DNA of 64,000 nucleotides from contig CALUXE010000005.1 of the NCBI GenBank assembly GCA_944324675.1, positions 1 to 64,000 of the forward strand, written 5' to 3'. This document shows positions 18,792 to 44,347 of the stretch, piece by piece; position 1 is the first letter of the stretch, and the number at the start of each line of letters is the position of its first letter. A program made the position numbers and the translations under genes. The notes beneath the pieces were generated by a model. The model made no database searches and was not told where the DNA came from. It worked only from the letters and a program-made list of their open reading frames with translations. This stretch comes from an uncultured Elusimicrobiales bacterium (lineage in GTDB: Bacteria; Elusimicrobiota; Elusimicrobia; Elusimicrobiales; Elusimicrobiaceae).

Positions 18792-21700
18792 ATGAGAGCG
18801 CATTTGATTAAATTGACTTCCGTGATTCTTTCCCTGTTTATGCTGGCGCAGAGCTCGCTTCCCGCATATGCGCAGGCCTATAAGGAGAATCCTTTTCCGT
18901 TTCATATCTCGAATAACGGTGTATCTTTTGATGAAGAAAAATTTTCCATAAACGCGAAATTCTTAACAATAGGCAATACCCTCTCTTTTGAAGACTACAA
19001 ATCCGTCATGAGTTGCGACAAAGATTTAAAATCTTTAGGAACTATTTCCACGGACGAATGGAAGGATTTATATTTTGAATATAAAAAAGCCGTTGTCGCC
19101 GAAGAAGATGCCGTCGCCGCCGCGTACAATTATATAAATACGACGCACAAATACGGCCCCAAAGACGCCGCACTCGTCGCAAACGATCCAAAATCCAGAA
19201 ACGAAAACGGGGATATATGCGACGAAGGCGAATGTTTTGCTCCATTAATATACAACAGAGCCCTGCTCAGAGCGCTTTTGAAGGACGGAGCGGGAGTCGA
19301 CGAAACCGATAAAGAATGGCGCTGGAACGACGAACTTATGTTGGCGCCGGCCAAAAATATTTATAATATCATATCCGAATACGGCATAAGTTTGGCGGAT
19401 ATAGCCTTCGCTCAGAAATATTTCAGGTTCCTTATAAATAAAACAAACAAGCATTGCGACAATGACGTCTATATGGCCGATATAATGCCAGGCTCAGCCG
19501 GAGGGGAGGGGCGGGCCGACGCTAGACAGGGGAAAGAAGAACGCCGCGCCTCCTGCGAGAAATTGGGGTATATAGCGCTTTCTTTGGGCCTGCTCGACGA
19601 ACTTTCCGCCTCCGATAAAAACGAAAACGCGGAGCTTCTCTATAAACAATTAAAAAACAATTACAGAAAAGATTACGGAGCCTTGGTATTGGGCAATTAC
19701 GTTACCGCTTTATTGCTTACGGGCAACGACAAGGCTTATCAATTGTTGGAAAAATTCCTTCTCAAAGACAGTTTGTCCGACGGCTTGAGGTTCGGAAATG
19801 TTTGGCAGGTGCTCGGGCGCGTTTTCGACGTAATTTTGATAAAAGCCTGGCTAGATAAAGCCATAGACATAAACGACAAAATAAGAGGCCGCGGCGGAAG
19901 ATATTTAAACGAAGTCGGTTTAAGATTTCAATATTTGGACGAAGAAACGGCAAAAGAATACGGTTATTCCGATTTTAACATAAGCATGGCCAAAGACGGG
20001 CAAAGCGGCTACAATATGCCCTACGGCAATCTTTTGGAGGATATAGGAGTCTTATTGAGCCAATGGCCCGATAACCGCGCCCGCGCCATAGCGAACAAAG
20101 CGGTAAACAATTACGCTTTGGCTTTGCAAAATTCAAACGAGGGATATTTCGCGGTGCATATACCATTGGTTACCGGGGCCATAAAAGGCGGCGGTGCCAA
20201 CGGCGGGAATACCCACTATGTGATGGGAAAGCTCTATAATCTGGATTGGTGGGATTTAAACGAAGGAACCCAACGCCGCGTAAATAACATAATGGCGAGG
20301 GTATCTGGAGACTATGGGGCAGGTTACAAACCGGAAAAAACCGAAAATACCATAAAGATATCCCGTTCTGAAAATACCCAAAAAATAGCGCGCCTGGCTA
20401 TATGGGGCGACATATTGATAAGCGCGATATTGATGACGTCGTTTATAGTAAGTCTGCCCTCTCTGGCTAAGGGGACAGCCTCTTTCATAAAAAGTTTAAA
20501 ATCTTCCAAAGCGGCGAAAATCGCCCGTATGTTAAAAGTCAGAGGGGCGGGCAAAAAAGCTTTGCTCGAGAGAGGGGCTGGCAATGTAAAGAAAAGCGGA
20601 ACGACGGCGGCAAAACAGTCCGTTCAAGATTTCAAAAGAAGCACAACTATCAGCGCGGCCGAAAAAAAAGCTAGAAATGCGGTTAAAACCATCAAGAAAA
20701 GGACTAAGGACATTTCTCTGCTGGCCGATAAATACAGAAAAGAGAGGGTTACTTCCGACTCTCCAAAGATTTTGGCCTCAAAAACGCCTTTAAATGAAGG
20801 AACGGCTAAAATGGTTTTAAGCGGGCAAACCGTTAAAGGTGCCCCCGCGATAGAAGGGGAAAGAGCCGTCCTTACCGCAACTATAGGGGAAGGCGGCGGC
20901 GCGGCGGCTCAAGGGGGGAGTGAACTCACCCGCGCGCAAAGATTACTCCTATCCAAGAGAGAAGCCGAAAGCGGACTTAAAATAGTGCAAGAAGCTTTGG
21001 AACTCTCTCAGCCGGCCGTATCCCAACCATTTAAACCGGGCTGGTTCTTTAACAAGCCCTATAAAGAGCTGCCAAAATGGAAACGTTTTATCGCCGATCA
21101 ATATTTCTCTTGGATATTGCGTTCTTGGGATATAAGCGAACAAATAGCCAAAGGAAGCATACGCAATCCCGTCAAGGCCTTTTCCGGTTTGACGCTTAGC
21201 GCGGCGCCCGGCGTTAATCTCTTTAGCCCTGCGGTAATAGCGGCGCCCGTTTCGCAGGGGCCGCAAACTGCGTTTAGGACGGCCTATCACTTCTCCGACG
21301 CCTTCGGCGGCGCTTTTAATATCACAAAGGCGGCCCCGACCCTGACGACTACGGTTGAGTTTTTCTCAAATACTTCCAAAACGGCGGCAAACGCCGCCAA
21401 CGGCATACAAAAAGGCGCGGCTGGAACAAAACAGATATTCTCCATTTTCGCGCTACCGAAAATAGAGGGGATTTTGAATGAATTCCACGGCGGGCCGAGC
21501 GCGAGATTAAAAGCGAATTACGCAAGCGCTTCCCTTTTTGCCCCGATTTCAACAGATTATTCGCCCGCCACTACGCCCAACCAAGAAAACACCGCGGCTT
21601 ACAATGAACAAAAAAACTCCTTACAAAATAATATCGGCTATGACGAATTTGAATATTTCGCCGTTCAACTCCTAAAGAAAAGAAAAATCCTCAAGGATAA

Positions 21701-30895: not shown

Positions 30896-31224
30896 GTTTA
30901 AAGTTTTTACGGCAATTTTTATATAAATATTATATAAAATTTTTCGCGAGCGGCGTAATATTATTGATATTTTAAATTCCCGCGCCCGCCACTCCGCGGA
31001 ACCTACCCGCCCGTTTTATTTGACGCTAAAACCCCTTCCGCCAAGAAGAAATATACTCCCCGCGTCCTTCGCGCTTTAATCCCTGTCTGACGAAATATAA
31101 AAACACGCTGATATATCCGAAACATTAAAAACTCTTGCTTTTACGCTCTTTATCCATTATCATAAAGAAGATAAGAGCTTTTATTAAAGCGCGAATCTAT
31201 CAAAGACATAAAGGGGAGAAAGAA
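30896..31224. other. Intergenic region, no gene recognised
   Basis: The tRNA-Arg promoter region occupies the left end (AT-rich, TATAAT on the minus strand). The rest shows no ORF of note, no repeat and no clear hairpin. The SD of the DUF805 gene (GGGGAG) is at the right end. Confidence 0.5.
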
Positions 31225-31554
31225 ATGGAAACATTCAAAAAATATTTCTTAGAGATAATAAGCAAGAAATATATAGCTTTCGGCGGTAAAGCGGACAGAG
31301 CGGAATTTTGGTATTTCGTTTTGTTTGCCTTTATCGTAAATTTTATTTTGGGGTTGTTGTTCGCGCCTTTGGCGGCCCTTTTTAACTTGGCCATACTACT
31401 GCCTTCTTTAAGCGTAGCCGCGCGAAGGTTAAGAGACGCGGGGCACAGCCCGCTATGGCTGTTTACCTTAATCTTCGGCATAGGCGTACTGATAGTGCTT
31501 ATTTTATGCGCCTTGCCAAGCAAACAGCCCGCACGACAGCATAAAAGCAAATAA
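31225..31554 (+). CDS. DUF805 membrane protein (second copy)
   Basis: 109 residues from METFKKYF, chosen because GGGGAG lies about 8 nt before this ATG; upstream in-frame starts lack an SD and add an atypical basic extension. It has the DUF805 start GGKADRAEFWYF, hydrophobic segments, and AARRLRDAGHSPLW. Paralogous in design to the gene at 4380. No known function. Confidence 0.88.
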   Translation: METFKKYFLEIISKKYIAFGGKADRAEFWYFVLFAFIVNFILGLLFAPLAALFNLAILLPSLSVAARRLRDAGHSPLWLFTLIFGIGVLIVLILCALPSKQPARQHKSK

Positions 31555-31564
31555 AAATAAATTT

Positions 31565-31594
31565 AAAAGGCGGCTTTTACAGGCCGCCTTTTTT
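31565..31594 (+). terminator. Intrinsic terminator
   Basis: AAAAGGCGGC/GCCGCCTTTT stem plus T tract, insulating the DUF805 gene from the next promoter. Confidence 0.9.
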
Positions 31595-31632: not shown

Positions 31633-31661
31633 TTGACAAAACACTCTTTTTTTGATATTTT
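31633..31661 (+). promoter_or_regulatory. Consensus sigma-70-type promoter of the phage-like cassette
   Basis: TTGACA (31633-31638), exactly 17 bp, TATTTT (31656-31661). It is the best -35/-10 pair seen in the window and predicts a start near 31668. Confidence 0.75.
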
Positions 31662-31675
31662 TTTGCTAGGGAGAG

Positions 31676-31705
31676 CCTCATATTCAACTATATATGAGGT
31701 TTTTT
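31676..31705 (+). promoter_or_regulatory. Leader hairpin with U6 that sequesters the SD
   Basis: CCTCATAT (31676-31683) pairs with ATATGAGG (31692-31699), followed by six T (31700-31705), then the ATG at 31707. The GAGG of the 3' arm is also the only SD. The structure can act as a terminator and as a translational block. Confidence 0.6.
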
Positions 31706-31706
31706 A

Positions 31707-32012
31707 ATGGTTATAACAGATCTCTCCCAAACACCGGAAGTAAACAAAAGCGTAAAATTGACGGAAATCGCCGCCTGCACCAACGGCAGAAGCGAGTGCA
31801 TTATGGTGCTTGCCACAGGCTCTTTCACCGGGGGCGACATAAAACTGCAAGTCAGCCAGGACGACATAAACTATTATCCGCTTACCGACGAAAACGGCGT
31901 GCAAATCCTGCTTAAGGCCGATATTCCGCTCTATCTCAAATTCGCCAATCTCTATTTAAAATGCGATTTGACGGGCATATCCAGCCAAAACCTTAAAGTA
32001 ACGGTGCAGTAA
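31707..32012 (+). CDS. Small phage-like protein, first gene of cassette
   Basis: 101 residues, no signal peptide or membrane segment. It has predicted beta-rich character with the pattern ATGSFTGGDIKLQVSQDDINYYPL and a tail LKCDLTGISSQNLKVTV. This resembles small beta-sandwich proteins encoded beside phage tail fibres; I do not recognise a named family. It is 1 nt upstream of the next gene, so translationally coupled. Confidence 0.65.
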   Translation: MVITDLSQTPEVNKSVKLTEIAACTNGRSECIMVLATGSFTGGDIKLQVSQDDINYYPLTDENGVQILLKADIPLYLKFANLYLKCDLTGISSQNLKVTVQ

Positions 32013-32013
32013 T

Positions 32014-33207
32014 ATGAAAACTTCCCTTTTGACTTCCCTTAAAGGGAATATGGGCTTTAAGGCGGGGGAAGGCTTTATCCCTACGGCGTACAACTGGGCC
32101 AAGCCTTCCTCTTGGCCAGAGTTGCGGAAGATAACGCCGCAAAAAGGCATATCGTTCCTCTTGTCAGACAAATATCCTTATGCGGCTTTTTCAGCTACTT
32201 GTGTCGGAGGCTATGAAGTCTTAATAGACGGTACGATATATGGTACATTCGGAAGCTCCGAAAAGTGTACTGTAACTTTGGATGACATAGAGCAGAACGG
32301 TTCTTTCGTTACCTATCCGGAACCGCTCAAAGTTCATATAGTTATTATCAAGCCGACTATTTCCCAAAACAACATATCGGCTTTTAGAATGCTTTCTTAT
32401 TCTGATAACATTAAAGAGGAAGAAGGGCTTTTATGGGTAGATTTTAATTTGGAAAGCGTGATATCTTTGGAGAATTGTTTCTATATATATCAGAAGCTTT
32501 ACTGCCCAGATTTGGAGGTCATAACATCAAGAAACAATATCTTAAAAGTGAGCAATATGGCAAATGCGTTTAACTCTGCAAGCAAATTATCCTACCTTCC
32601 AATTTTGAAAGGGGAAAATTTTTCTTCGGAAGGGTTTAATTATTGCTTTACCAATGACAATGCAAATATCTTCCTGAAGAGAATCCGACTTCAAGATATA
32701 TCCATAAACGGTTCTATGAGAGGTTTTGTTAAGGGTTGCACCAATCTTGAATTAATAGAAACCTCAAACTGTAATTTAAACCCCTCATATCTTGGAGAGG
32801 CCTATCGCTATTGCCGAAATTTAAAATTCTTACCTTCTATGCAATACTCTAATCTTATTTCGGCGCCCAATTTCTTGATAGAAAATTATAATCTATCGGA
32901 AACGGAAATAGATTTGTCTTCAGCTCATAGTTTGCAAAAGGTGGATATTTGCGGTTCCGGCGAAAATCAAACTGTAAAATTAAAACGGCTTAAGGTGTCA
33001 TCTTCCGCTCCTTTTGACGGGAACTCGCCTCAAATAGACATTTCTTTTACGGAATTGGACAAAAATGCCTTAAAAGAACTTTTTGAGAGTTTGCCTCTCG
33101 TTTCCGCGGGGCAAAAAATAGACATCGCAGGCACAGTCGGTTCTTCCGAATTGACCCAAGAGGACATAGCAATAGCCGTAAATAAAGGCTGGGAGGTGCT
33201 GCAATGA
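32014..33207 (+). CDS. Phage tail-fibre-like protein with irregular leucine-rich repeats
   Basis: 397 residues without signal peptide. The N-terminal region has NWAKPSSWPEL and a following GYEVLIDGTIYGTF, like the W-x-RP-x-DW-P and vDWGDG pattern of some phage tail proteins. Residues about 150-340 are irregular leucine-rich repeats of the BspA kind (LYCPDLEVITS, CTNLELIETSNC, CRNLKFLPSM). The end ELFESLPLVSAGQKIDIAGT...NKGWEV is typical of such receptor-binding proteins. It is probably an adhesin or receptor-binding tip; assignment is by pattern only. The region looks more AT-rich than its neighbours. Confidence 0.65.
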   Translation: MKTSLLTSLKGNMGFKAGEGFIPTAYNWAKPSSWPELRKITPQKGISFLLSDKYPYAAFSATCVGGYEVLIDGTIYGTFGSSEKCTVTLDDIEQNGSFVTYPEPLKVHIVIIKPTISQNNISAFRMLSYSDNIKEEEGLLWVDFNLESVISLENCFYIYQKLYCPDLEVITSRNNILKVSNMANAFNSASKLSYLPILKGENFSSEGFNYCFTNDNANIFLKRIRLQDISINGSMRGFVKGCTNLELIETSNCNLNPSYLGEAYRYCRNLKFLPSMQYSNLISAPNFLIENYNLSETEIDLSSAHSLQKVDICGSGENQTVKLKRLKVSSSAPFDGNSPQIDISFTELDKNALKELFESLPLVSAGQKIDIAGTVGSSELTQEDIAIAVNKGWEVLQ

Positions 33208-33386
33208 AGTATCAACTTTCGGAAAATCCGCAAGGCCCCTATTATAGCGAGAAAGAAGGCAAATATTATGATTTACTGACCTGTTCCAAAGCTACGGGCC
33301 CCAAAGGAATAAACATAGGATGGCAAGAATACAAATCCCTAAAAAGCGCCCTAAAAGCCTTAGGGTTGAAAGCAAGGGAAAATTAA
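33204..33386 (+). CDS. 60-residue partner of the tail-fibre-like protein
   Basis: The start overlaps the preceding stop in an ATGA. It has YYSEKEGKYYDLLTCSKATGPKG and INIGWQEYKSLKSALKALGL: a short, soluble, Tyr- and Lys-rich protein. I do not recognise it. Its position suggests a chaperone or accessory to the fibre. A terminator follows. Confidence 0.6.
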   Translation: MKYQLSENPQGPYYSEKEGKYYDLLTCSKATGPKGINIGWQEYKSLKSALKALGLKAREN

Positions 33387-33392
33387 AATGAA

Positions 33393-33420
33393 AAAATCCC
33401 TCCGATCCGGGGGGATTTTT
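33393..33420 (+). terminator. Intrinsic terminator closing the cassette
   Basis: AAAATCCCTCC and GGGGGGATTTT form a stem (with a G-U pair) followed by T residues. Confidence 0.8.
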
Positions 33421-33458: not shown

Positions 33459-33911
33459 TTATTGCGCCGCTATCTTATTAAAAACTACCTCAACGGCTTC
33501 TTTAAGTTCGGTCATAATCTTTTCAAAGGGGCGCCCGGAAAGCGCTATCGGATCGGGCATATCTTTTTCTTTACCGTAGGCATAATCCAACAGCAAGAAG
33601 ATTTTTTCCGTATATTGCGGGGCTCTGTCTAACAAAGAATCTAAAATATCTTGCGTCATAACAAGCACTAAGTCGGCGCGCTCCAAATCGGCGATTGAAA
33701 CAAGGGTGGAAATATGCCCTTCGGCGGCGGTGCCGTTACTTTTAAGGAAGTCCTTTATTTTATCCGGTATAACATAATCCTGGTTGGCGTAAAGGCCGCG
33801 GGAAAACACTTCAATATCCAGGCGGTTGGCCTTTCTTGCGGCCTCTTTTAGAAGCCGCTCCGCGGCGAAACTTCGGCAGATATTCGCGTGGCATATAAAA
33901 CATATTCTCAT
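33459..33911 (-). CDS. wzb: Low-molecular-weight protein tyrosine phosphatase (Wzb-like)
   Basis: 150 residues. The P-loop CX5RS is at residues 7-14 (CHANICRS) and the general-acid loop DP is in MPDPIALSG. In polysaccharide loci this enzyme dephosphorylates the Tyr tail of the Wzc-type kinase, and such a kinase is encoded at 36274. Divergent from the Wzy/WaaL-like gene; a TAGGAT box lies 6 nt before the ATG, another possible leaderless start. Confidence 0.88.
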   Translation of the reverse strand: MRICFICHANICRSFAAERLLKEAARKANRLDIEVFSRGLYANQDYVIPDKIKDFLKSNGTAAEGHISTLVSIADLERADLVLVMTQDILDSLLDRAPQYTEKIFLLLDYAYGKEKDMPDPIALSGRPFEKIMTELKEAVEVVFNKIAAQ

Positions 33912-33955
33912 AATATAATCCTAATATATCAAATTTTATACAATATTAGTTAATT

Positions 33956-35578
33956 ATGGATTTATTCTTTAAAGTCTTTTTCGCGATACAGTTTTTCTTT
34001 TTGGTATTCGCTTTCGCGGGCACCGTGCCGTGGGCTTTTTCCATTTTCCAGGGCTGCGCCTTTATCTTGTCGGCTATGCTTGTGTTTAGACGCGGATTGC
34101 TTGTAACCGCTCCATTTAAAGCGGCGTTTGCCGGATTCCTGTTCCTTGTTTTTTATACTCTTCTTCAAGCCTGTTGCCCCGTAACTGTATTAGATCCCGT
34201 TCCGAATTTTCCTTCAACTCTGATGCGCCTTTACACTCTGGACCATGCGGCGCTTTTCACCACTTGGTTCGCTCTTTTTATTATCGGGGCAAATATCGCG
34301 GGCGATTTCAAAGCCAATAAAACCATACTTTGGGCTATAATAATCCCCGCCATTTTCGTGACCCTCATCCATATAGCTGCGCCGGGTTTATATCTTAAAA
34401 TTTTAATAGATGAAAACGGCGGAATCGGCCCCTTCGTCAACCGCAATCACGGGGGCTGCTTTCTGGTTATGGGCGCCATATTATGCGCCACTTTAGCGGC
34501 TGTACATTTCGCTTCAAAAACCAGATACCTTTTGGAAAATAAAAAAAATGAATTCTACGCCAAACAAATATTATTCCTGTTTTTGTTTTTCTTTTTGGCC
34601 TTCGCCGCCGTATTTACCCGCTCTAGGGGGACCATGCTGGCTTTGTTTACCGGAACATTTGTTTATTTTCTATTTTTGCTTTCTTTCTTCTTAAAAAATC
34701 GTGCCGTCAAGACGATATCCTTTATTATTGTTTTAATTCTTTTTTTAGGCGGGCTGTTTTTCGCTTTTAAAGAAAAAGGCGACATTAACGCCTTTGCGCG
34801 GAGGGAATCCTCCCGTTCGGTTGACATAAGAAAAGATTTATATTCTTCCGCTTTAAAAGCTTTAAAAGAACGGCCTTTATTCGGAACCGGAATAGGCGCT
34901 ATGCCGATAATGATAACCAATTATACCCAACCACTTGGAGAATACATAGAACGCCTGCACAGCGATCCTTTGGAAATCCTTTTGGGTGTCGGAATAATCG
35001 GCGCTATTCCGCTCGTGGCATTTATAGGGCTGTTTTTCTTTTTCGCCTTAAAACGCTTAAAATACCTCTCTTTAAAGAAACAAATCTTTTGCGGCGGGAT
35101 TATATGCGCTTTGATATCTTTCTGCATAAACAGCGCGATAGATTTCCCGTTGTTTATACCGGCCTGCGCTTGCGTAGTATTCGTTTTAGCGGGTATGCTT
35201 TGCGGAGTATCTTTTTATAGAGAAAATCATTCCAGAATAAGCGTAAAATTATGGTTGAAGATTATAATACTGTCCATTTTCTGCCTAACTTTTTACTATA
35301 CTCTGCAAAAAGCGATAGCATGGCGGTATTATTACTTCGCCAACGGCTTTAAATACGAAGGGAAAATCGCCTACTATCAAAAAGCTTTGCGCTATTATCC
35401 CTCGCCTCGTTACGCTTTGCGCTTGGGAGTGGAATATCACAATAAAAGCTTGGACGAGAAATTGCCCCAAGAGGAAAAATCCGCCTTAAAAGCCCGGGCC
35501 CATAAATTGGCGGAAGATTGGCTTAAAAAATACCCTCGCGATAAAGAACTATCCCGCCTCTATGTGAATACCTTGTAA
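33956..35578 (+). CDS. O-antigen ligase/polymerase family (Wzy_C) membrane protein
   Basis: 540 residues with about 12 membrane helices. The Wzy_C region has FTRSRGTMLALFTG, a GTGIGAMPIMI loop, and LHSDPLEILLGVGIIG. The C-terminal 80 residues are soluble and helical, TPR-like (YYQKALRYYPS, YALRLGVEYHNKS). It polymerises repeat units or ligates glycan to lipid or protein at the periplasmic face. Since an EpsG-like polymerase exists at 45327, this one may be the ligase. Confidence 0.85.
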   Translation: MDLFFKVFFAIQFFFLVFAFAGTVPWAFSIFQGCAFILSAMLVFRRGLLVTAPFKAAFAGFLFLVFYTLLQACCPVTVLDPVPNFPSTLMRLYTLDHAALFTTWFALFIIGANIAGDFKANKTILWAIIIPAIFVTLIHIAAPGLYLKILIDENGGIGPFVNRNHGGCFLVMGAILCATLAAVHFASKTRYLLENKKNEFYAKQILFLFLFFFLAFAAVFTRSRGTMLALFTGTFVYFLFLLSFFLKNRAVKTISFIIVLILFLGGLFFAFKEKGDINAFARRESSRSVDIRKDLYSSALKALKERPLFGTGIGAMPIMITNYTQPLGEYIERLHSDPLEILLGVGIIGAIPLVAFIGLFFFFALKRLKYLSLKKQIFCGGIICALISFCINSAIDFPLFIPACACVVFVLAGMLCGVSFYRENHSRISVKLWLKIIILSIFCLTFYYTLQKAIAWRYYYFANGFKYEGKIAYYQKALRYYPSPRYALRLGVEYHNKSLDEKLPQEEKSALKARAHKLAEDWLKKYPRDKELSRLYVNTL

Positions 35579-35619
35579 ACCTTTTATGTTAGACATATAT
35601 TTGGTAAAATATAGCTATT

Positions 35620-36264
35620 ATGAAATATCACAGCATAATTATATTTTTGGCGTTTACAGCAATATTTAGCGGCTGCGGCAATCCCGCAAAAGTAAATAAC
35701 AGCCTGATAACTGAAATAAATAACGGAGACATCCCCCAAAATCTTAATGATTTGAAAGGTAATTCCGACTATATTTTGCAGCCCGGGGACCTTGTGGAAA
35801 TACAAGTCTTTATGGAAGATGACATGAAACGCACCCTTCGTATAGCCACAAACGGTGCGATAACCTATCCTTTAATAGGAAACATAAAAATTTCGGGGTA
35901 CTCCGTTTCCGAAGCGGAAAACATACTTTCTTCCGCTTTGCAAAAATACATAAAAAACCCGCAGGTATCCATGTTGATACAAGAATACGGCAATAAAACC
36001 GTATATGTACTGGGGCAGGTTTCCAAACCCGCGGCAATACAAATACCGCCGGAAAAACCCTTAACCGTGTTGGAAGCGATAACTTCCGTCGGGGGATTTA
36101 CCGATATAGCGGCCGTATCCAGAGTAAGAGTTCTGAGAATGGAAAACGGCAAACAAATATCCATAGATGTGGATGTAACTCAAATAACAAAACAAGGCAA
36201 TAAAGCTTTGGATATAGCCTTAAAGCCGGGCGATGTAGTATTTGTACCGCAAAGTATTTTCTAG
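35620..36264 (+). CDS. wza: Polysaccharide export lipoprotein (Wza-like)
   Basis: 214 residues. The signal peptide ends in a lipobox FSGC with Cys19 as the lipidated residue. The Poly_export domain starts at YILQPGDLVEIQVF, and one SLBB domain follows (VYVLGQVSKPAAIQIP). It is shorter than E. coli Wza and lacks the extra domain and helical barrel, so it may form a periplasmic ring working with another outer-membrane component. A TAAAAT lies 9 nt before the ATG. It is 9 nt upstream of wzc. Confidence 0.9.
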   Translation: MKYHSIIIFLAFTAIFSGCGNPAKVNNSLITEINNGDIPQNLNDLKGNSDYILQPGDLVEIQVFMEDDMKRTLRIATNGAITYPLIGNIKISGYSVSEAENILSSALQKYIKNPQVSMLIQEYGNKTVYVLGQVSKPAAIQIPPEKPLTVLEAITSVGGFTDIAAVSRVRVLRMENGKQISIDVDVTQITKQGNKALDIALKPGDVVFVPQSIF

Positions 36265-36273
36265 GGAAAAAAT

Positions 36274-37995
36274 ATGCGTGAAGAACTTAATAATAATGAA
36301 GAGATAGACTTTAATTACTATATAGAAGTGCTTCTTAAACATTTTTGGGTTATAGCCGCGTTTATGGCGTTGGGCCTGTTCTGCGCTGTAATGTTTAATA
36401 CTTTTACCAGGCCGGCATACCAGGCAACGGTGCTTATGATGATAAACCAAGAAAATGCGGGGAAGTTGGACACCAATCCCTACGCCTCGTTCAACGCCGA
36501 AGAAGACTATTACAGAACGCAATACAAACTACTTGAAAGCAGAAACCTGCTTGAAAAAGTATATCGCCAGATGGAACTGAATAAATATGAGGAGTTTTCC
36601 AACCCAGCGGGCGTAAAAAAACTTTTAAAAGCTATAGATATAACTCCTATAACGCGCTCGCGCTTGGTCAACTTGTCGGTAACTTCATATGACCCCGCCT
36701 TGTCGGCCGATATAGCCAATAACATAGCCGAAACTTTTGTCCGCGATAATATAAGCAACCGAATCTCAATGGGACAAGATGTAATAAGAGCTTTGGAAAG
36801 TACGGAAAAAAGCAGGGAAGATCAAGAACTTCTAAATTCAATGCCCCAAATAGTCAACAGCGATTTCATTAAGAATTTGAAGCTGCAGGAAACAAACTTA
36901 TTAAACAAACAGGCGGAGCTTTCCTCCAAATATACGGCTATGCATCCAGAAGTTATCTCCGTAAAAAGGCAGCTTTCTTCGGTACAAAACAAAATAGCTT
37001 TGGAAACCCAAAGATTGGTGCAAAGCATAAAGATAGAGCTTTCCGGGCAATTCTCCGGCAACAATATCCGCATAGTTGATAATGCAGTTACCCCCGATAG
37101 GCCGGTACGGCCGAGAAAAATCTTAAATCTTGCGATAGCCTTATTTGCGGGCACCTTGTTGGGGATAATATTCGCTTTTATATTGGACTTTTTTGACCAA
37201 ACGGTAAAGAGCTCGGAAGATTTGGAAAAGAAATTAAAACTGCCGTTCTTGGGTTTCGTCCCCAAAGAGAAGCTAAAAAAGAACGAAACGGAATACTCCT
37301 ATATGACGAAACAAGGCAATTTCCTCTTGGCGGAAAATATACGCAATATAAGGACAATGCTCGCTTTCGCCCAGTCGCAGACGCCGCATGCTCCTCTGCT
37401 TATAACCAGCTCTCTGCAGGGGGAGGGAAAGAGCAATCTCTCTACCAACTTAGCCGTAGCTTTGGCCCAGACGGGCAAGAAAGTACTGATAGTAGACGGC
37501 GATTTAAGGCGTTCGCGCCTGCATAAAACCTTTAGGCTTTCGCCCGAATTGGGTTTAAGCAATATTTGGACGGCGGAAGGCGAAAAGGCGGAATACGCCG
37601 CCAATGTCCAGCCCGTAAAAGACGTTCCCAACCTCTATGTAATGACGGCGGGCCAAAGGCCGCCAAACCCGGCGGAACTTTTAAATACGCCCAAATTGGC
37701 CGATTTTATAGACTGGGCAAAAAAGAATTACGACCAAGTCCTGATAGACTGCCCCGCCATCGTACCGGTATCCGATACTCTGCTTTGGGGCAAGTATATA
37801 CCCTATGCGGTGTTCGTGGTCAAATACGGCCAGACTAATACCAGAGTAGCCCAAATAGCCATTGATAAGCTAAATAAGGCGGATATAAAGATACTCGGCG
37901 CGGTAATAGGACACTATCAGCCCAGCGGTATGGCTATCGGCAAATACGGTTATTACAAAAAGAGTTACAGCTACTATAACGAAGACAAAAAATAA
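36274..37995 (+). CDS. wzc: Wzc-like chain-length determinant fused to BY-kinase
   Basis: 573 residues. An N-terminal Wzz domain has two membrane helices, the second near 288-308, with a periplasmic coiled coil between them. The cytoplasmic tyrosine autokinase has Walker A GEGKS (383-387), Walker A' LIVDGDLRRS and Walker B VLIDCPA. The C-terminus is a Tyr cluster (YGYYKKSYSYYNED), the autophosphorylation tail. It controls polymer length and export together with Wza and the Wzb-like phosphatase. Confidence 0.93.
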   Translation: MREELNNNEEIDFNYYIEVLLKHFWVIAAFMALGLFCAVMFNTFTRPAYQATVLMMINQENAGKLDTNPYASFNAEEDYYRTQYKLLESRNLLEKVYRQMELNKYEEFSNPAGVKKLLKAIDITPITRSRLVNLSVTSYDPALSADIANNIAETFVRDNISNRISMGQDVIRALESTEKSREDQELLNSMPQIVNSDFIKNLKLQETNLLNKQAELSSKYTAMHPEVISVKRQLSSVQNKIALETQRLVQSIKIELSGQFSGNNIRIVDNAVTPDRPVRPRKILNLAIALFAGTLLGIIFAFILDFFDQTVKSSEDLEKKLKLPFLGFVPKEKLKKNETEYSYMTKQGNFLLAENIRNIRTMLAFAQSQTPHAPLLITSSLQGEGKSNLSTNLAVALAQTGKKVLIVDGDLRRSRLHKTFRLSPELGLSNIWTAEGEKAEYAANVQPVKDVPNLYVMTAGQRPPNPAELLNTPKLADFIDWAKKNYDQVLIDCPAIVPVSDTLLWGKYIPYAVFVVKYGQTNTRVAQIAIDKLNKADIKILGAVIGHYQPSGMAIGKYGYYKKSYSYYNEDKK

Positions 37996-38016
37996 CCGTC
38001 AAACCTATTGCGAACC

Positions 38017-38046
38017 AAAAACCCCCGTACGAAAACGGGGGTTTTT
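38017..38046. terminator. Intrinsic terminator after wzc
   Basis: AAAAACCCCCGT/ACGGGGGTTTTT stem; A and T tracts on both sides, between converging operons. Confidence 0.9.
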
Positions 38047-38242
38047 GTATGTTGTGAAAACCCCCAGCCAGGCCGGGTTCGGTAAAGGTTTTACCGTTGC
38101 CCAAAATAGAAAAACTCCTTTTATTATTTATAGTTTAAACTAATGCCTGGTTAGCCGTAGAAATAATGACTCTTGGGGGAACAATAAAGAGAAAACGCCG
38201 GTTTATCGTTTTAACTTCGCGGCGTTTACTTTCAATCCCGAT

Positions 38243-39433
38243 TTATCTCGCCCCGCCCAAGAAGCGAATTATCTTTAAGATAAGGGGCTTTATTCCTCTT
38301 TTGTTTCTGATAAGCGAATAAAAAGACTCCTTTTTGTTTATCAAAGCGTCAAAAAAGCGCTCGCGGAAAGGACTGGGCTCGGTAGACTTCATAAAATAAG
38401 GATTGTATTGGGACATATTCTCAAAAGAAATATCCTTGTAAATCAAATTATCCTTTAAGTCCTCAAAAAGCGCCTCGGCCTTCGGGGAATTTAACATAAG
38501 TACGGATACGCCTTTGGCGTCGTACATTTCGGGTATAAATTCCTTTACGCCCCATAAGTCGGCCATGGTAAAATCAGAATATTTATCGCAGCCTTTGAAA
38601 GAGCAGGCGTGGCACGAGGGCCTTTCATAGAGGTTTGAAATGGTGAAAGGAAGAGTATAAATAATCTTAAACAGCCGCCCTTTTGACTTTAACAACAAGG
38701 GTTTAAAAGGCTTTAAGAGGCCCTTTATTTCGGGAAGGGAAGCCCCGTCTTTCTTTTTAATACAAAGATAGCTGGCGTCCCAGCCGAAGCGTTTATAACG
38801 GAAATCTATGGCCGAAATGTCTTGAAGGGGGAGCGTTTCCTCCAGAAATCGGCGCCATACCAACGGGGAAGGCACGCCGTGGCATATAATGTCCGCCGTA
38901 ATAAGCGAAGGATAGTCCCCGCCCAAATAATTTTTAAGTCCCGCTATTTGGCAAGGCGTACCGGTAAAAAGAACGGTTTTGCCCTCTTGTAAAAATTGTT
39001 TGGCAAGTCTAAAACATTCCTGCATATCGCTTTGCACATATTTGGAGCGGCGCAGTTTATCCAATTCTTGTTCGTCTTGCGCGCTTTGATGCACTACATT
39101 CCAATTCCCGTCAAAAGCCGCCCCGAACACGACCCCGCCGCGCTTAAGGGCATATTGCGCCAGCCAAGAGAACATTCCGCCAGAAGAGCCGGCTCTTCTC
39201 AGTGTTTCGTCTTTATGTTTAGCGGCCATAATTCTTGCCGTATGAAAGGGGGGAGTATTGTTAATTATGGGGCATACTTTTAGGCATAATCCGCATTTGA
39301 CGCAAAGATTTTCGTCAACGCTGGGATACAAAAAGCCTTCCGCGTCGGCCTTCATTGAAATGGCATTTTTCGGGCAGATATTGCGGCAGGCCCCGCAGCC
39401 GCTGCATTTGGTTTTGTCTTCAATCTTTATCAT
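38243..39433 (-). CDS. Fe-S protein, coenzyme F420 hydrogenase beta-subunit family (copy 2)
   Basis: 396 residues. Two [4Fe-4S] motifs are near the N-terminus (CSGCGACRNICP and CVKCGLCLKVCP), followed by FrhB-type domains (AGSSGGMFSWLAQYAL, LFTGTPCQIAGLKNYLG, ADIICHGVPSPLVW) and conserved cysteines in RPSCHACSFKG. Such proteins recur in polysaccharide loci beside pyruvyl transferases and flippases; their reaction is not established. It is the last gene of the reverse operon and overlaps its paralogue by 4 nt. Confidence 0.85.
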   Translation of the reverse strand: MIKIEDKTKCSGCGACRNICPKNAISMKADAEGFLYPSVDENLCVKCGLCLKVCPIINNTPPFHTARIMAAKHKDETLRRAGSSGGMFSWLAQYALKRGGVVFGAAFDGNWNVVHQSAQDEQELDKLRRSKYVQSDMQECFRLAKQFLQEGKTVLFTGTPCQIAGLKNYLGGDYPSLITADIICHGVPSPLVWRRFLEETLPLQDISAIDFRYKRFGWDASYLCIKKKDGASLPEIKGLLKPFKPLLLKSKGRLFKIIYTLPFTISNLYERPSCHACSFKGCDKYSDFTMADLWGVKEFIPEMYDAKGVSVLMLNSPKAEALFEDLKDNLIYKDISFENMSQYNPYFMKSTEPSPFRERFFDALINKKESFYSLIRNKRGIKPLILKIIRFLGGAR

Positions 39434-40590
39434 CTGAGAATATCCACAATTTTGTCAATTACCCTAAAAAGAAATCTGCGCGGGGCGTATTCTTTGGAAT
39501 ATATATATTTTTCCGCAGCCGCGTGAAAGCCGTTCTTGCGTAAATCTCTAAAGAATAACTTTCGCTCTATTTTGGCTTTGGGATGTTTATAAATGTGGCG
39601 GCTTCTGAGTTTTACCTCTTCTTCCGATACGCTGTGGCAGTTTATTTTATCCTTGCATTTATCAAACAAATCCGCCCCTTTATCGGAAGATACCGCCACA
39701 ATGGAAAGGCCGGCGTTTTCGTTATCTTTAAGCAACGGGCCTTTATATCCCCAAAAATCCGCCAGAGAAATATCGCCCACCCTAGGCAGCTTTGCCCAAT
39801 TGCAAACATAGCACGACGGCCTAAGATATAAATTATGCAAAAATCCCGCCTGATAAGGATTATTGGTTGAAGTGGTAGATTTTTTGGAGCCGTCCTCAAA
39901 AAAAATAGTTACTTTATTGGGATACCACCCGTTTTCTTTATCGCGCCAGCAAGCGCTTTTCGCTTTGGATTTCTGTTTTTGGTTTAGTTCCTCTATATAT
40001 TTGTCAAAAACCATTCTGGAGGGCACTCCGTGGCAAACGACATCGCAGGTATATAAATTTTCATACTCCTTGCCCAAAAAGGAATGAAGGCCCGCAACCT
40101 GGCAAGGCGTCCCTGAAAACAGCACTTTTAAACCGCTGTTCAAGTCCTCTTTTACCTTGCGGAAAACATTATTCGTATTGCTTTCCAAATATTTGGATTT
40201 CCTGAATTTTAAATATCCTTCCAAAGAATCCGCACGACTGTGAACCAATCGGAAATTATCCAACAATTCAACCCCGTATACCGCCCCTTTTTGAGATATT
40301 ATATATTCCGCCAAAAGCGAAAATATTCCGCCGGAGGAACTATTCCTCGCTTGAGCTTTATCCTTATTATATGCCCCCAAAAAGCTGTAAGCGTAGGTTT
40401 GATTTCTCTTGTAATCGTTTTCTTTGGGGCATACTTTATTGCAAAGGCCGCAGTCTACGCAAAGGGCTTTATCCGTATAAGGATAGAAAAAACCTTCCTC
40501 GTCGCATTTCAGAGAGATGGCATCTTTAGGGCAGGCGCTCACGCAGGCACCGCAGCCGCAGCAATCAGCTTTCTTTTTTAAATCTATCAT
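39430..40590 (-). CDS. Fe-S protein, coenzyme F420 hydrogenase beta-subunit family (copy 1)
   Basis: 386 residues from MIDLKKK, chosen because GGGGG lies 5 nt before this ATG; a TTG four codons upstream overlaps the SD. It has the same plan as its neighbour: CCGCGACVSACP and CVDCGLCNKVCP, NSSSGGIFSLLAEYI, LFSGTPCQVAGLHSFLG, CDVVCHGVPSRMVF and RPSCYVCNWAK. A tandem diverged duplicate. Its 5' end overlaps the flippase gene by 26 nt. Probably a redox enzyme acting on a sugar or lipid-linked intermediate; the substrate is unknown. Confidence 0.85.
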   Translation of the reverse strand: MIDLKKKADCCGCGACVSACPKDAISLKCDEEGFFYPYTDKALCVDCGLCNKVCPKENDYKRNQTYAYSFLGAYNKDKAQARNSSSGGIFSLLAEYIISQKGAVYGVELLDNFRLVHSRADSLEGYLKFRKSKYLESNTNNVFRKVKEDLNSGLKVLFSGTPCQVAGLHSFLGKEYENLYTCDVVCHGVPSRMVFDKYIEELNQKQKSKAKSACWRDKENGWYPNKVTIFFEDGSKKSTTSTNNPYQAGFLHNLYLRPSCYVCNWAKLPRVGDISLADFWGYKGPLLKDNENAGLSIVAVSSDKGADLFDKCKDKINCHSVSEEEVKLRSRHIYKHPKAKIERKLFFRDLRKNGFHAAAEKYIYSKEYAPRRFLFRVIDKIVDILR

Positions 40591-42097
40591 ATACGCCCCC
40601 AAAAATTAAATTAAGCGGTTTTTTTAGCAAGTCCTTCTCGTATCGGTTAAATACAAAAAACCATAAAAGCAAACCATATAGTGCCGAAAACATCGTACCC
40701 TGCAGCACAAAACCTGTTATTTTACCGTTGTCCCATACCGAACCGACAAATAAAAACACTAAAAACGCCATAAGCATATAAGGGAGAATTTTTAGCATTT
40801 CAATAAACAGTTCTACTACTTTTATCCCTAATCTGTGATAATAAAAGTTTATTATTATCGTCTGGCCTACCAGCAGAGATACACCTGTCGTTATCGCACA
40901 GCCCATACCGCCGTATCTCTTTGCCATAGGGATACAGACGATAATATTTATAACGCCCAATACCGCATATAAAACAGCCCTAAAAGCGTGTTTGTTCTTG
41001 GCTTGTATAATCGGCACGGCGGTAGTTTGCACAAGACATACAAATAAACCCGCCATTAATATCAAAGCGTAAGGGTATACTTGTTTAAACTCCGGCCCCA
41101 CCCAAAAATTTACAAAAGACCTGCCATAAAGCACAAATCCGAGAAATATATAGGCCATAAGATAATATTGCAGACGGCTAGTCTTTAAGAAAATGGCGTT
41201 AATTTCCGTCATATCGTCCGTCTTGGCGTTAATGGCGGAAAGCTGCGGCAGAAATATTCCGCCCATAGAAGAAGACATCGCCATATATCCCTGCGCTATC
41301 TGTATGGCCGTGGCGTATACCGCCACCGCACCGGCGCCCGCCACCGCGCCCAAGATTACCTGCCCCGTTTTCCAATACGCTATGCTGATTATGCCGGGAA
41401 TACAGACAAAAAAGGAAAATGTCAGTATTTCCTTTACCAATTTGCCGTTCCAATAATGAAGTTTAAACCTTACCTTCAACTTCCCTAATACATACCATAC
41501 GCTTAAAAGAGCAATAAATATATTAAACAGAGTCTGTACTATTACCACCGTCATTACAGAATTAAAAATCAATAAAAACGCCACTACGCTAAGCGGTCTA
41601 AATAAAGTGGTAAACAGCACCAAGCCCCTGGCAAAGATAAATTTTTGATGCGCGTTTATTATAGCCGTAAAAACATTTGAAGGTATCACCACCGCCAAGT
41701 TCAAAAGCAAGACATAAAACATATTCCTTACCGATATTATTTCCTCCGATGAAAGAGTATCGTAATAAAAAGGAATACAATAATGAAACAGCAATAAACC
41801 CGCAATTACTATCAAAACGGAAACGCCCGCATATAAAATACCGCTTAGCGCCAAAATCTTTTCCGCGGAAGTTTCGTCATTGACGGCTTTATAGCCCGAG
41901 TAGTATCTTGTAGTCGTGTTGGAAAGCCCCAAATCCATTATGTTGAGATACGCTATCAAAGAGCCTACCAGCTGATAAAGACCGTATTGATCCTTGCCCA
42001 AAAACGATATAAGCAGAGGGGTGAACAAAAAACCTACAACGGTATTTAAGGCTATACCGATGTAAGACAATACCGCGCCCGCTTTTCTTTGATTCAT
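40565..42097 (-). CDS. wzx: Wzx-type polysaccharide flippase
   Basis: 510 residues, about 14 membrane helices. The start RKAGAVLSYIGIALNTVVGFLFTPLLISFLG and the following GKDQYGLYQLVGSLIAYLNIMDLGLS are typical of MOP-superfamily O-antigen and capsule flippases. It moves undecaprenyl-linked repeat units to the periplasm for polymerisation. Confidence 0.92.
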   Translation of the reverse strand: MNQRKAGAVLSYIGIALNTVVGFLFTPLLISFLGKDQYGLYQLVGSLIAYLNIMDLGLSNTTTRYYSGYKAVNDETSAEKILALSGILYAGVSVLIVIAGLLLFHYCIPFYYDTLSSEEIISVRNMFYVLLLNLAVVIPSNVFTAIINAHQKFIFARGLVLFTTLFRPLSVVAFLLIFNSVMTVVIVQTLFNIFIALLSVWYVLGKLKVRFKLHYWNGKLVKEILTFSFFVCIPGIISIAYWKTGQVILGAVAGAGAVAVYATAIQIAQGYMAMSSSMGGIFLPQLSAINAKTDDMTEINAIFLKTSRLQYYLMAYIFLGFVLYGRSFVNFWVGPEFKQVYPYALILMAGLFVCLVQTTAVPIIQAKNKHAFRAVLYAVLGVINIIVCIPMAKRYGGMGCAITTGVSLLVGQTIIINFYYHRLGIKVVELFIEMLKILPYMLMAFLVFLFVGSVWDNGKITGFVLQGTMFSALYGLLLWFFVFNRYEKDLLKKPLNLIFGGVYDRFKKES

Positions 42098-42098
42098 T

Positions 42099-43295
42099 TT
42101 ATTTCCTCAAATCCGCTATAATCTTGCCTATTTTTTTGGCGTCTTGAATATATTTAGGCATAATTTGTTCCAGATGTTCCTTTATTTCCGCTCGTTTGGA
42201 GTAGAGCAAATTAAATTTCTGCGCCAAAATATCGGCGTTATCGTTTAACAAATCAAGATTAACGACATAATCCTCGCAAGAGCCGAAAAGATCCTTCGCT
42301 ATACCCAGCGATTTTATCGAGTAACCCAATACCAAGGTAGGCACGCAGGAACTGTATGCCGCTATTGTGGCGTGGGTTCTCGCGCCTACAAAAAACTCGC
42401 ATTTCGATATTATGTGTTTAAGCTGGGGGCCGTTTAAACTCTCGTCCGAAATTAAAAATACCCGTTTGGTGTCTTTAAATTTCTCAAAGAGCAGCTTCAA
42501 AACTTTTAAATCCGCCCCGCGCATTACGTGGGGGATAAGCAATATGTTTAAATCCTCATGGGATAGTATATTTTCTATCATTCTCTCATAGGCTTTTAAG
42601 ACGGCGCGTCCTTTTTTGCCGTCCGTTTTGCCCGTTACCAAAGAGCTTACATTCACGCCTACAAACTTTTTGCCTTCCAATTCCTTGGGTAAATCCGTTT
42701 GCGAGGGGGAAACTATAAAGGCGGGATCTGGTATCAAATAAAGGTTTTTTTCTATCCCCGCCTTAATCAGATTATCGTAAGAAAGGCTGTCGCGCGCGCT
42801 TAAAACAGCAATCTTAGAAGCCGTATCTTTCAGATATTTCGTTATATGACGTTCATCCACCGAAAAATCATATAAAATTACCTTGGGTTTTTGTCTTTGG
42901 GAAACCGCTATAAAACTTAAAATATCAAGAGTGTTGATAGTGGTGTCATAGTCATAATTATCCGCCGCAACAAGTACTATCGTGTCGTAAGCTTTAAATT
43001 CTTTTATCAACGGGTATTCTTTAATTTTATCCCATATTACCTTAAAAAAAGGCATAAATTTATTTATTGCCGCATTAAATTTTAAAATAAAATATTTTTT
43101 TGTCCAGCTAAATTGACGGGCAATATATTTGTCTGTAAATGGTATATTCAAGTCCTCTCCAGAATTTATATCAGCGGAGGAAACCGCAATATATTCCGCT
43201 CCGTTTTCCTTTAATATTTGCGTTATTCCTCTAAGAAGCATTTGAGAGCCCATATTATACTTCGCGGAACCTATAACTATCAGATATTTTTTCAT
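42099..43295 (-). CDS. Polysaccharide pyruvyl transferase family protein (copy 2)
   Basis: 398 residues from MKKYLIVIG. This start overlaps the upstream stop in ATGA, which supports it over a start 25 codons earlier. The N-terminal GSAKYNMGSQMLLRG and later SKCEFFVGARTHATIAAYSSCVPTLVLGYS are hallmarks of the CsaB/PS_pyruv_trans fold. The family transfers pyruvate from PEP to form ketal groups on surface glycans, though some members have other roles. Confidence 0.85.
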   Translation of the reverse strand: MKKYLIVIGSAKYNMGSQMLLRGITQILKENGAEYIAVSSADINSGEDLNIPFTDKYIARQFSWTKKYFILKFNAAINKFMPFFKVIWDKIKEYPLIKEFKAYDTIVLVAADNYDYDTTINTLDILSFIAVSQRQKPKVILYDFSVDERHITKYLKDTASKIAVLSARDSLSYDNLIKAGIEKNLYLIPDPAFIVSPSQTDLPKELEGKKFVGVNVSSLVTGKTDGKKGRAVLKAYERMIENILSHEDLNILLIPHVMRGADLKVLKLLFEKFKDTKRVFLISDESLNGPQLKHIISKCEFFVGARTHATIAAYSSCVPTLVLGYSIKSLGIAKDLFGSCEDYVVNLDLLNDNADILAQKFNLLYSKRAEIKEHLEQIMPKYIQDAKKIGKIIADLRK

Positions 43296-44347
43296 CGTAA
43301 ACTTATTCCCTCTAAATATTCTTTCGATTTGCTTCTTTCCTCTTCCAAAATCTTGTTCACTTGCATCCAAGAAATACTTTCGTCATAATTATCGCCGATA
43401 TTATCTATCAGGCGGCCTTTCAATCCCGTTAATTCAAGCAGGCTTTCCAAACGGGAATTGACATTCATTGCCGATGGAAGCAAGTCTACAAAGAAGTTCT
43501 TGTTAAAATTGATTGAAAACGCCAATCCGTGGAAAGAGTTCGTCACGACATATTTTGCCTTTAAGAAATAAGAAAGCCATTCCATGACATGCGGAGCTTT
43601 CGGCTTTAACCCGTATTTGGTCAAAGGGTGGGTGGATACGTATACTATATCCAAACCCGTCATACGGGAAAGCGATTTCGCGTAATTTATTATTTTCTCA
43701 TTGGCGTTCATCAAATAAAGTAAAATATAGTCTTCCTGCGGGATCGTTTGCGCCATAGAACCCCAAGCCTCTTTGGACATAAGCAAAGTAGGATCCAAAT
43801 GTAAAATGGCATCCTTTCCCGTTATCTCTTTTATTATCGCAAGCGCTGATTTCTCCCTTACGGAAATGGCATTAAAATCTTTCAGCAAAGAGGCGGCCTT
43901 CTCTTTTTCCTTCTCAGACAGGGTTTCCTTCCCGAAACTCGCCGCATACGAAAATTTTTTACTGTCTTCCTCAACAAAATCCAACATATAAGAGGTATCC
44001 CAACCGTTTCCGTTACATTCAAAATTCCAAACCTGATCACTGCCCGCAACAAACAAATCAAAGTCTTCGTTGAGTAACGGCAAATCTTCGCGCCTTATCG
44101 GTAAGGTAAGGCTTAGGAAATCTCTTCTAAAAATATCAAATTTTTTTCTTACGGATTTATTCCAAGACCAAAACAATATATTCTTTATGCTTTGCCTTAT
44201 ATTGAAAGGTTCTTTGTTATGAGGGTAATAATTTATTACCTTGCTTTCGCAGCCCAAATCTCCCAATGTCTTTTTAAGAGCGAAAGCTTGTAAAATCGCG
44301 CCGTAATTATCCGCCCAGTTATATGTAATAATCCCTATTCTTTTCAT
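43292..44347 (-). CDS. Polysaccharide pyruvyl transferase family protein (copy 1)
   Basis: 351 residues. GIITYNWADNYGAILQAFALKK is the family's N-terminal motif; DLFVAGSDQVWNFEC and KAKYVVTNSFHGLAFSINFNK follow. A different subgroup from the next gene. Probably modifies the repeat unit with a pyruvyl ketal. Coupled to both neighbours by 4-nt overlaps. Confidence 0.86.
   Translation of the reverse strand: MKRIGIITYNWADNYGAILQAFALKKTLGDLGCESKVINYYPHNKEPFNIRQSIKNILFWSWNKSVRKKFDIFRRDFLSLTLPIRREDLPLLNEDFDLFVAGSDQVWNFECNGNGWDTSYMLDFVEEDSKKFSYAASFGKETLSEKEKEKAASLLKDFNAISVREKSALAIIKEITGKDAILHLDPTLLMSKEAWGSMAQTIPQEDYILLYLMNANEKIINYAKSLSRMTGLDIVYVSTHPLTKYGLKPKAPHVMEWLSYFLKAKYVVTNSFHGLAFSINFNKNFFVDLLPSAMNVNSRLESLLELTGLKGRLIDNIGDNYDESISWMQVNKILEEERSKSKEYLEGISLR

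Follow-up and report, generated by a model that had tools for sequence, protein, structure and literature searches.

A three-gene cassette (genes A, B and C) in a polysaccharide locus of an uncultured Elusimicrobiales bacterium is probably, with a likelihood that we put at roughly three in four, the receptor-binding (spike or fibre) locus of a domesticated particle resembling a gene transfer agent (GTA), whose genes are held in four separate loci. Besides the cassette, the source genome (G000) carries three further small loci of phage genes set among host genes. By gene content these loci comprise tailed-phage structural genes able to build a virion-like particle, and they are endogenised at several places without recognisable integration or replication genes, which is how GTAs are characterised (PMC9662315). 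The MAG sequence suggests a previously unreported gene transfer agent in Elusimicrobiota.

The cassette and its polysaccharide setting

The window, by which we mean the whole stretch of 64,000 nucleotides that was analysed, belongs to a genome of 1.4 Mb in 17 contigs that is 99.7% complete, about 99% of which was covered when read stretch by stretch. The cassette, its signals and the neighbouring locus lie in the window as follows.

31565-31592, no strand assigned: terminator-like hairpin between a DUF805 gene and the cassette (called on the minus strand, with a T-run on the plus strand)
31633-31661, plus strand: promoter TTGACA-17-TATTTT (extended -10), which G001, G008 and G017 have at the same position
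31668-31706, plus strand: 5' leader, nearly the whole 5'UTR, with a 14-bp hairpin (31670-31683 / 31692-31705)
31707-32012, plus strand: gene A, 101 aa, beta-sandwich, probable spike or fibre base or adaptor
32014-33207, plus strand: gene B, 397 aa, with a BspA-type leucine-rich repeat (LRR) tip
33204-33386, plus strand: gene C, 60 aa, small partner behind the fibre gene, as in phages
33397-33414, plus strand: terminator-like hairpin of the intrinsic type, downstream of the cassette
33459-43370, no strand assigned: polysaccharide locus holding the cassette, with LMW-PTPase, Wzy, OPX, Wzz/BY-kinase, two FrhB-type proteins, a Wzx-like flippase and a pyruvyl transferase

Inspection of the open reading frames shows A, B and C packed tightly between one promoter and one terminator. 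The original prediction had described three coupled genes with such signals, an absence of signal peptides, and no integrase, capsid, terminase or holin beside them; the genes and signals are all present, no signal peptide is apparent, and none of the four phage functions adjoins the cassette. It had not included the polysaccharide setting, the hairpin that hides a ribosome-binding site (RBS) or the particle genes elsewhere in the genome. The window contains 8 promoters (6.8 in shuffles) and 6 terminators (4.3 in shuffles), both at chance level, and we judge the promoter and leader of the cassette to be real from their conservation in other species, not from counts or scores. Upstream of the cassette (window 31135-31554) G000 has the DUF805 gene, and G001, G008 and G017 have an asnA-like gene and a gene of 331 aa.

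Relatives of B occur in 20 of 100 related genomes, all belonging to the genus of the source genome (g1) or to a sister genus (g6); among the same 100, A is confined to g1 and C is found in 11 genomes. A and B are intact and single-copy in 10 of the 11 good genomes of the genus. Each of the 12 g1 genomes examined has one copy of the A-B cassette, frequently joined by C, within a polysaccharide locus, at varying sites (Wzy/OPX/BY-kinase, UDP-galactopyranose mutase, flippases, glycosyltransferases). In g6 the relative of B is the distal part of a T7-like prophage tail fibre.

Phage ancestry of the three genes

No significant hit to A, B or C came from Pfam, PHROGs or NCBIfam, nor did Foldseek yield one with A or B; in a phages collection A had no match and B had weak matches only. 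The LRR part of B has profile matches to PDB 4gt6 (1e-12) and 4fs7 (6e-12), and its AlphaFold model (pLDDT 87.6) aligns best to a Bacteroides cell-surface LRR protein, 4fd0 (VIA; Z 12.3, rmsd 4.9, 252 aligned), which bears out the BspA-type repeats proposed from the sequence. B shares an LRR tip with the BspA-type surface proteins; it differs from them in being a derivative of a phage fibre and in having no apparent signal peptide. Its order is a stretch of about 25 N-terminal residues predicted to be disordered, which in the model might possibly be an anchor, then a beta domain, the LRR tip and a conserved C-terminal domain.

In the sister genus, T7-like prophages encode homologues of B as the fibre and of C in the gene that follows. 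The distal part of these fibres (L059-L065, L069) resembles B over about 370 aa at 30-38% identity, and a C-like gene follows the fibre in L062 and L069. The fibre of L069 begins with a T7-gp17-like virion-attachment domain (phrog_1640 and others, residues 1-116), a type of N-terminal domain that we did not find in B, and whereas the prophage fibres carry a long linker, B lacks one and has its disordered residues instead. In two siphophages from IMG/VR (L102 and L104) B stands behind the tail-tip gene, with C behind B in L104, and the tail tips of both are homologous to that of the particle described below (4.7e-42 and 6.3e-30). Judged by homology, B and C derive from a phage fibre module. The sister genus is rich in T7-like prophages (L059-L065, L068, L069), which have LRR fibres of the B type, with pilin-like genes and an endolysin in the vicinity; LamG-like domains are apparently inserted at differing places in the B-type fibres of L049, L056, L065 and L069.

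Homologues of A are found in the podophages L066, L067 and L101, each flanked by a giant virion protein on one side and a receptor-binding protein on the other. Those of L066 and L067, podophages of the same genus that carry a diversity-generating retroelement (DGR), are 45% identical to A; L101 was found with a profile of A, a viral scan with the A sequence alone returning none. The AlphaFold model of A has a pLDDT of 73, and structure comparison (VIA) gave weak matches to a common beta-sandwich only (Z up to 7.4). By these homologies A is a podophage virion gene, sited just upstream of receptor-binding proteins. The phage-fibre ancestry originally proposed is thus supported for the cassette as a whole, its homologues being fibre-module genes of prophages and IMG/VR phages (B and C) and phage virion genes (A). 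The sources differ (podophages for A, other phages for B-C), so the cassette has to be taken as mixed in origin. One of the DGR podophages, L066 (G014:C7:40700-60600), is a prophage with a virion protein of 2847 aa, the A homologue and a reverse transcriptase (phrog_1423); its 483-aa tail protein looks like the DGR target. We also considered B itself as a DGR target and rejected this, because the DGR reverse transcriptase of L066 is unmatched in G000.

The tip of B is hypervariable, and the ends of B are conserved, as is A. Comparison of G000 with G001 gives identities of 82-94% for the flanking capsule genes, 93% for A, 80% for C and 44% for B; within B the first 30 residues are about 97% identical and the middle 7-40%. 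A is under purifying selection (dN/dS 0.06-0.13), and its dS relative to G008 (0.58, one species pair) resembles the value for host genes nearby (about 0.65). In G004 an unrelated protein of 216 aa stands behind A where B would be, which indicates that the tip is exchangeable. Two species with similar Wzy and OPX (82% and 93%) have differing B tips (44%), and B accordingly does not just follow the capsule genes; given this lack of simple co-variation, its target may be another surface glycan, or may belong to recipients rather than to the producer.

A hypervariable tip, a place always within polysaccharide loci and the absence of adjacent capsid or terminase genes would also suit a free lectin, adhesin or decoy, a phage fibre that the host has adopted to serve at its surface or against phages, independently of any particle. 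Against this, B has no apparent signal peptide and we saw no export gene beside the cassette, the particle's tail cluster lacks a fibre gene, and the cassette has a type of leader in common with the capsid, portal and terminase loci that an adhesin would not need. We therefore consider a free adhesin unlikely, and continue with the cassette as the probable receptor-binding locus of a particle.

Putative particle loci elsewhere and their leaders

The original prediction had suggested a search of the rest of the genome for tail genes, and these are present. The three further loci in G000 are listed here.

G000:C10, about 18,907-20,470: TerS-TerL
G000:C1:67,617-69,442: portal and prohead protease
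G000:C14:8,138-16,599: capsid, connectors, tail tube, short tape measure and tail tip, in an 8.5-kb cluster

A stand-alone PBSX-type TerL is present in 15 of 18 genomes of the genus (Terminase_6N search). That of G000 matches TIGR01547 at 6.6e-42, above the cut-off, retains Walker A, Walker B-like and acidic nuclease-type residues, and is preceded by a conserved gene of 126-129 aa that is TerS-like by position only; the pair sits among host genes. The portal of G000 matches PF04860 at 5.9e-73, the family being present in 14 of the 18 genomes and in all 11 good ones, and an HK97-type protease-like gene lies directly behind it. Portal and terminase are still neighbours in G006, G007 and G010. 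The third locus, flanked by host metabolic genes, has the order capsid (phrog_10, 1.7e-60), adaptor, neck, tail tube, chaperone, tape measure, tail tip and two small genes, with no fibre gene behind the tail tip. Its capsid was located with a profile built from relatives of phage L235, a search in which T7-like capsids were found as a positive control. This cluster was read in G000 and partly in G008, and genus-wide conservation refers to terminase and portal only. Siphophage modules in L102 and L104 (IMG/VR) and L070 (a prophage in G007) all contain homologues of the tail tip, and L104 and L070 also have homologues of the particle's tube and tape measure; these stand in a phage context, and the tape measure is longer in related phages (644-670 aa) than in G000 (272 aa). 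We recognised no integrase, replication or lysis genes in the four loci, and identified no endolysin or regulator there.

Terminase, portal, prohead protease and capsid are of no use to tailocins. A tailocin-like killing particle with A-B-C as its host-range fibre would account for the hypervariable tip and the dispersed tail genes, both of which fit a weapon in kin competition; however, a TerS-like gene, motor and nuclease-type residues in TerL, a portal, a prohead protease and a capsid all indicate DNA packaging, and a tailocin is in our view quite improbable. The conservation of motor, portal, protease and capsid suggests instead that the particle has probably retained the packaging of DNA.

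The original prediction had further proposed that the cassette supplies an alternative fibre to a tail-like particle or prophage elsewhere. The particle part of this proposal has gained a gene set with a similar leader; the prophage part and the word alternative are not supported. As a spare fibre for unrelated prophages, of the podophage type seen in G014 and G013, the cassette would widen their host range or spoil their progeny, a use that the 45% identity of A to its homologues in podophages of the same genus could be taken to favour. However, the podophage tail protein, the giant podophage virion protein and the DGR reverse transcriptase have no match in G000, the giant protein was likewise not found in most good cassette-bearing genomes, and nearly every good genome has the cassette, with or without such prophages. 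We regard this use as extremely improbable; given a tail cluster with no fibre gene, A-B-C would more probably serve as the main fibre of the particle than as a spare.

Purifying selection on the particle genes is strong, with dN/dS of 0.03-0.15 for portal, TerL, protease, A and tube, and no stops lie inside their matches. The TerLs of the genus form one clade among phage TerLs (support 100/100), and distances between genomes agree for portal and TerL (rho 0.69) and, less strongly, for A and portal (rho 0.51, a value reached in 7 of 2000 permutations). That the genes are split over loci, with no integrase, replication or lysis genes recognised, is what four scattered remnants of old prophages would look like; yet this low dN/dS, the lack of internal stops, the presence in nearly all good genomes, the catalytic-type motifs of TerL and the same kind of leader on four loci make defective prophage debris very improbable, and we return to a maintained particle.

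The 3' arm of the cassette leader holds the Shine-Dalgarno sequence of A (GAGG), followed by U6 and the ATG. The hairpin has a predicted folding energy of -16.2 kcal/mol (z -5.6) with a probability of 0.00 that the RBS is unpaired. A hairpin is kept in 11 of 12 cassettes and is absent in front of the phage copies of A; in G004 (L050:9860-10824, G004:C7) it is broken. All four loci have a common leader type, an AGAGCC/TAGCCG hairpin usually with a U-run; the cassette's promoter and hairpin recur ahead of TerS, and the capsid-locus leader reads GGGGAAGAGCCGTCA...TGATGGCTATTTTT. The detail of the hairpin varies among loci, and on the portal and capsid loci it lies 5' of a separate RBS. Outside the cassettes our leader model (R2) matches chiefly portal leaders and ordinary terminators, its best such matches lying just upstream of portal genes, and among 1203 ORFs only 31 have a loose form of the motif and hairpin in front of them. 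For the cassette motif, when applied to the three remaining loci, we estimate the probability of agreement by chance at about 2e-5, the motif having been partly picked after the loci had been seen.

We stress that the leader sequence alone is too ordinary to prove function, and that its conservation and recurrence carry the weight. An Rfam search with the leader gave no match. RNAalifold on a plain MAFFT alignment of the leaders gave zero pairs because the stems are offset by indels, and the structure was drawn by hand for one leader group; a strict TTTGCTA..AGAG regular expression missed the capsid locus because the -10 there differs.

A proposed mechanism and known gene transfer agents

On our best reading, A-B-C fills the gap left by the fibre gene missing from the tail cluster. 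Every locus would have a promoter of its own, and its mRNA would start with a hairpin; in the cassette this hairpin would sequester the RBS of A, and we propose that the genes consequently stay silent pending a common signal that opens it, after which capsid, packaging motor and fibre would be produced together. A would form a base on the head or tail of the particle. The disordered N-terminus of B would attach to this base, the LRR tip would recognise a glycan on the cell surface, and C may assist the folding or assembly of B. Host DNA would be packaged into the particle, which through B would bind cells of the matching surface type and could transfer that DNA to them. More tentatively, we hypothesize that this is an independently domesticated GTA of Elusimicrobiota, that its four loci are switched together by the RBS-hiding or attenuator-like hairpin, and that the receptor-binding pair has moved into the capsule locus, so that the specificity of the particle would be inherited with the cell-surface type.

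The closest likeness is to the GTA of Rhodobacter capsulatus (RcGTA), whose particle genes are described as dispersed over five loci (PMC9662315), and whose spike genes, in the account given in part of PMC10218006, adjoin and are co-regulated with capsule genes and encode a spike fibre anchored by its N-terminus on a base pentamer. The RcGTA head spikes, like our cassette, come from two small phage-derived genes outside the main cluster and beside capsule genes, and a putative base and fibre pair of this type adjoining capsule genes is found in every isolated cassette. The two systems belong to different phyla, and B is a BspA-type LRR fibre homologous to phage tail fibres; the likeness is drawn from gene layout and description. 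The capsule-linked pair and the RcGTA spikes are perhaps convergent. A hairpin leader is not described for RcGTA in the parts of PMC10218006 and PMC9662315 available to us. The GTAs of Brachyspira and Bartonella (Brachygtaviriformidae and Bartogtaviriformidae), which we liken by description only and which have different hosts, are also domesticated caudoviricete gene sets, vertically kept and often at several loci (PMC9662315).

As far as PMC9662315 was available to us, the formally recognised GTAs comprise three lineages, in Alphaproteobacteria and Spirochaetia (Brachyspira), and the titles and abstracts returned by a full-text search for Elusimicrobia and gene transfer agents mention no such element. 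If our reading is true, a fourth lineage would exist in a deep phylum of small-genome gut bacteria, and phage domestication for the exchange of DNA would be a recurring event. If capsule-linked spikes arose twice, this would hint at a rule that receptor-binding genes travel with the gene cluster of their receptor. The common leader would mark the whole regulon at sequence level and offer an RNA switch open to testing, and such a mark would make dispersed GTAs findable in uncultured lineages.

Other elements of G000 are recorded here as separate observations. A stand-alone tyrosine integrase and a small excisionase-like gene lie at L097:17825-18826 (G000:C6, about 90 kb) with no structural genes alongside. 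ParB/methylase-like and cytosine-methylase-like genes near a contig end (L306:3666-8194, G000:C3) are possibly a mobile element or a restriction-modification system. Finally, G000 has very many small type-IV-pilin-like genes (GFTLIEMLVVVLIIGILAAIA), for example at window:67-555 and in L343-L349, both scattered and in prophages.
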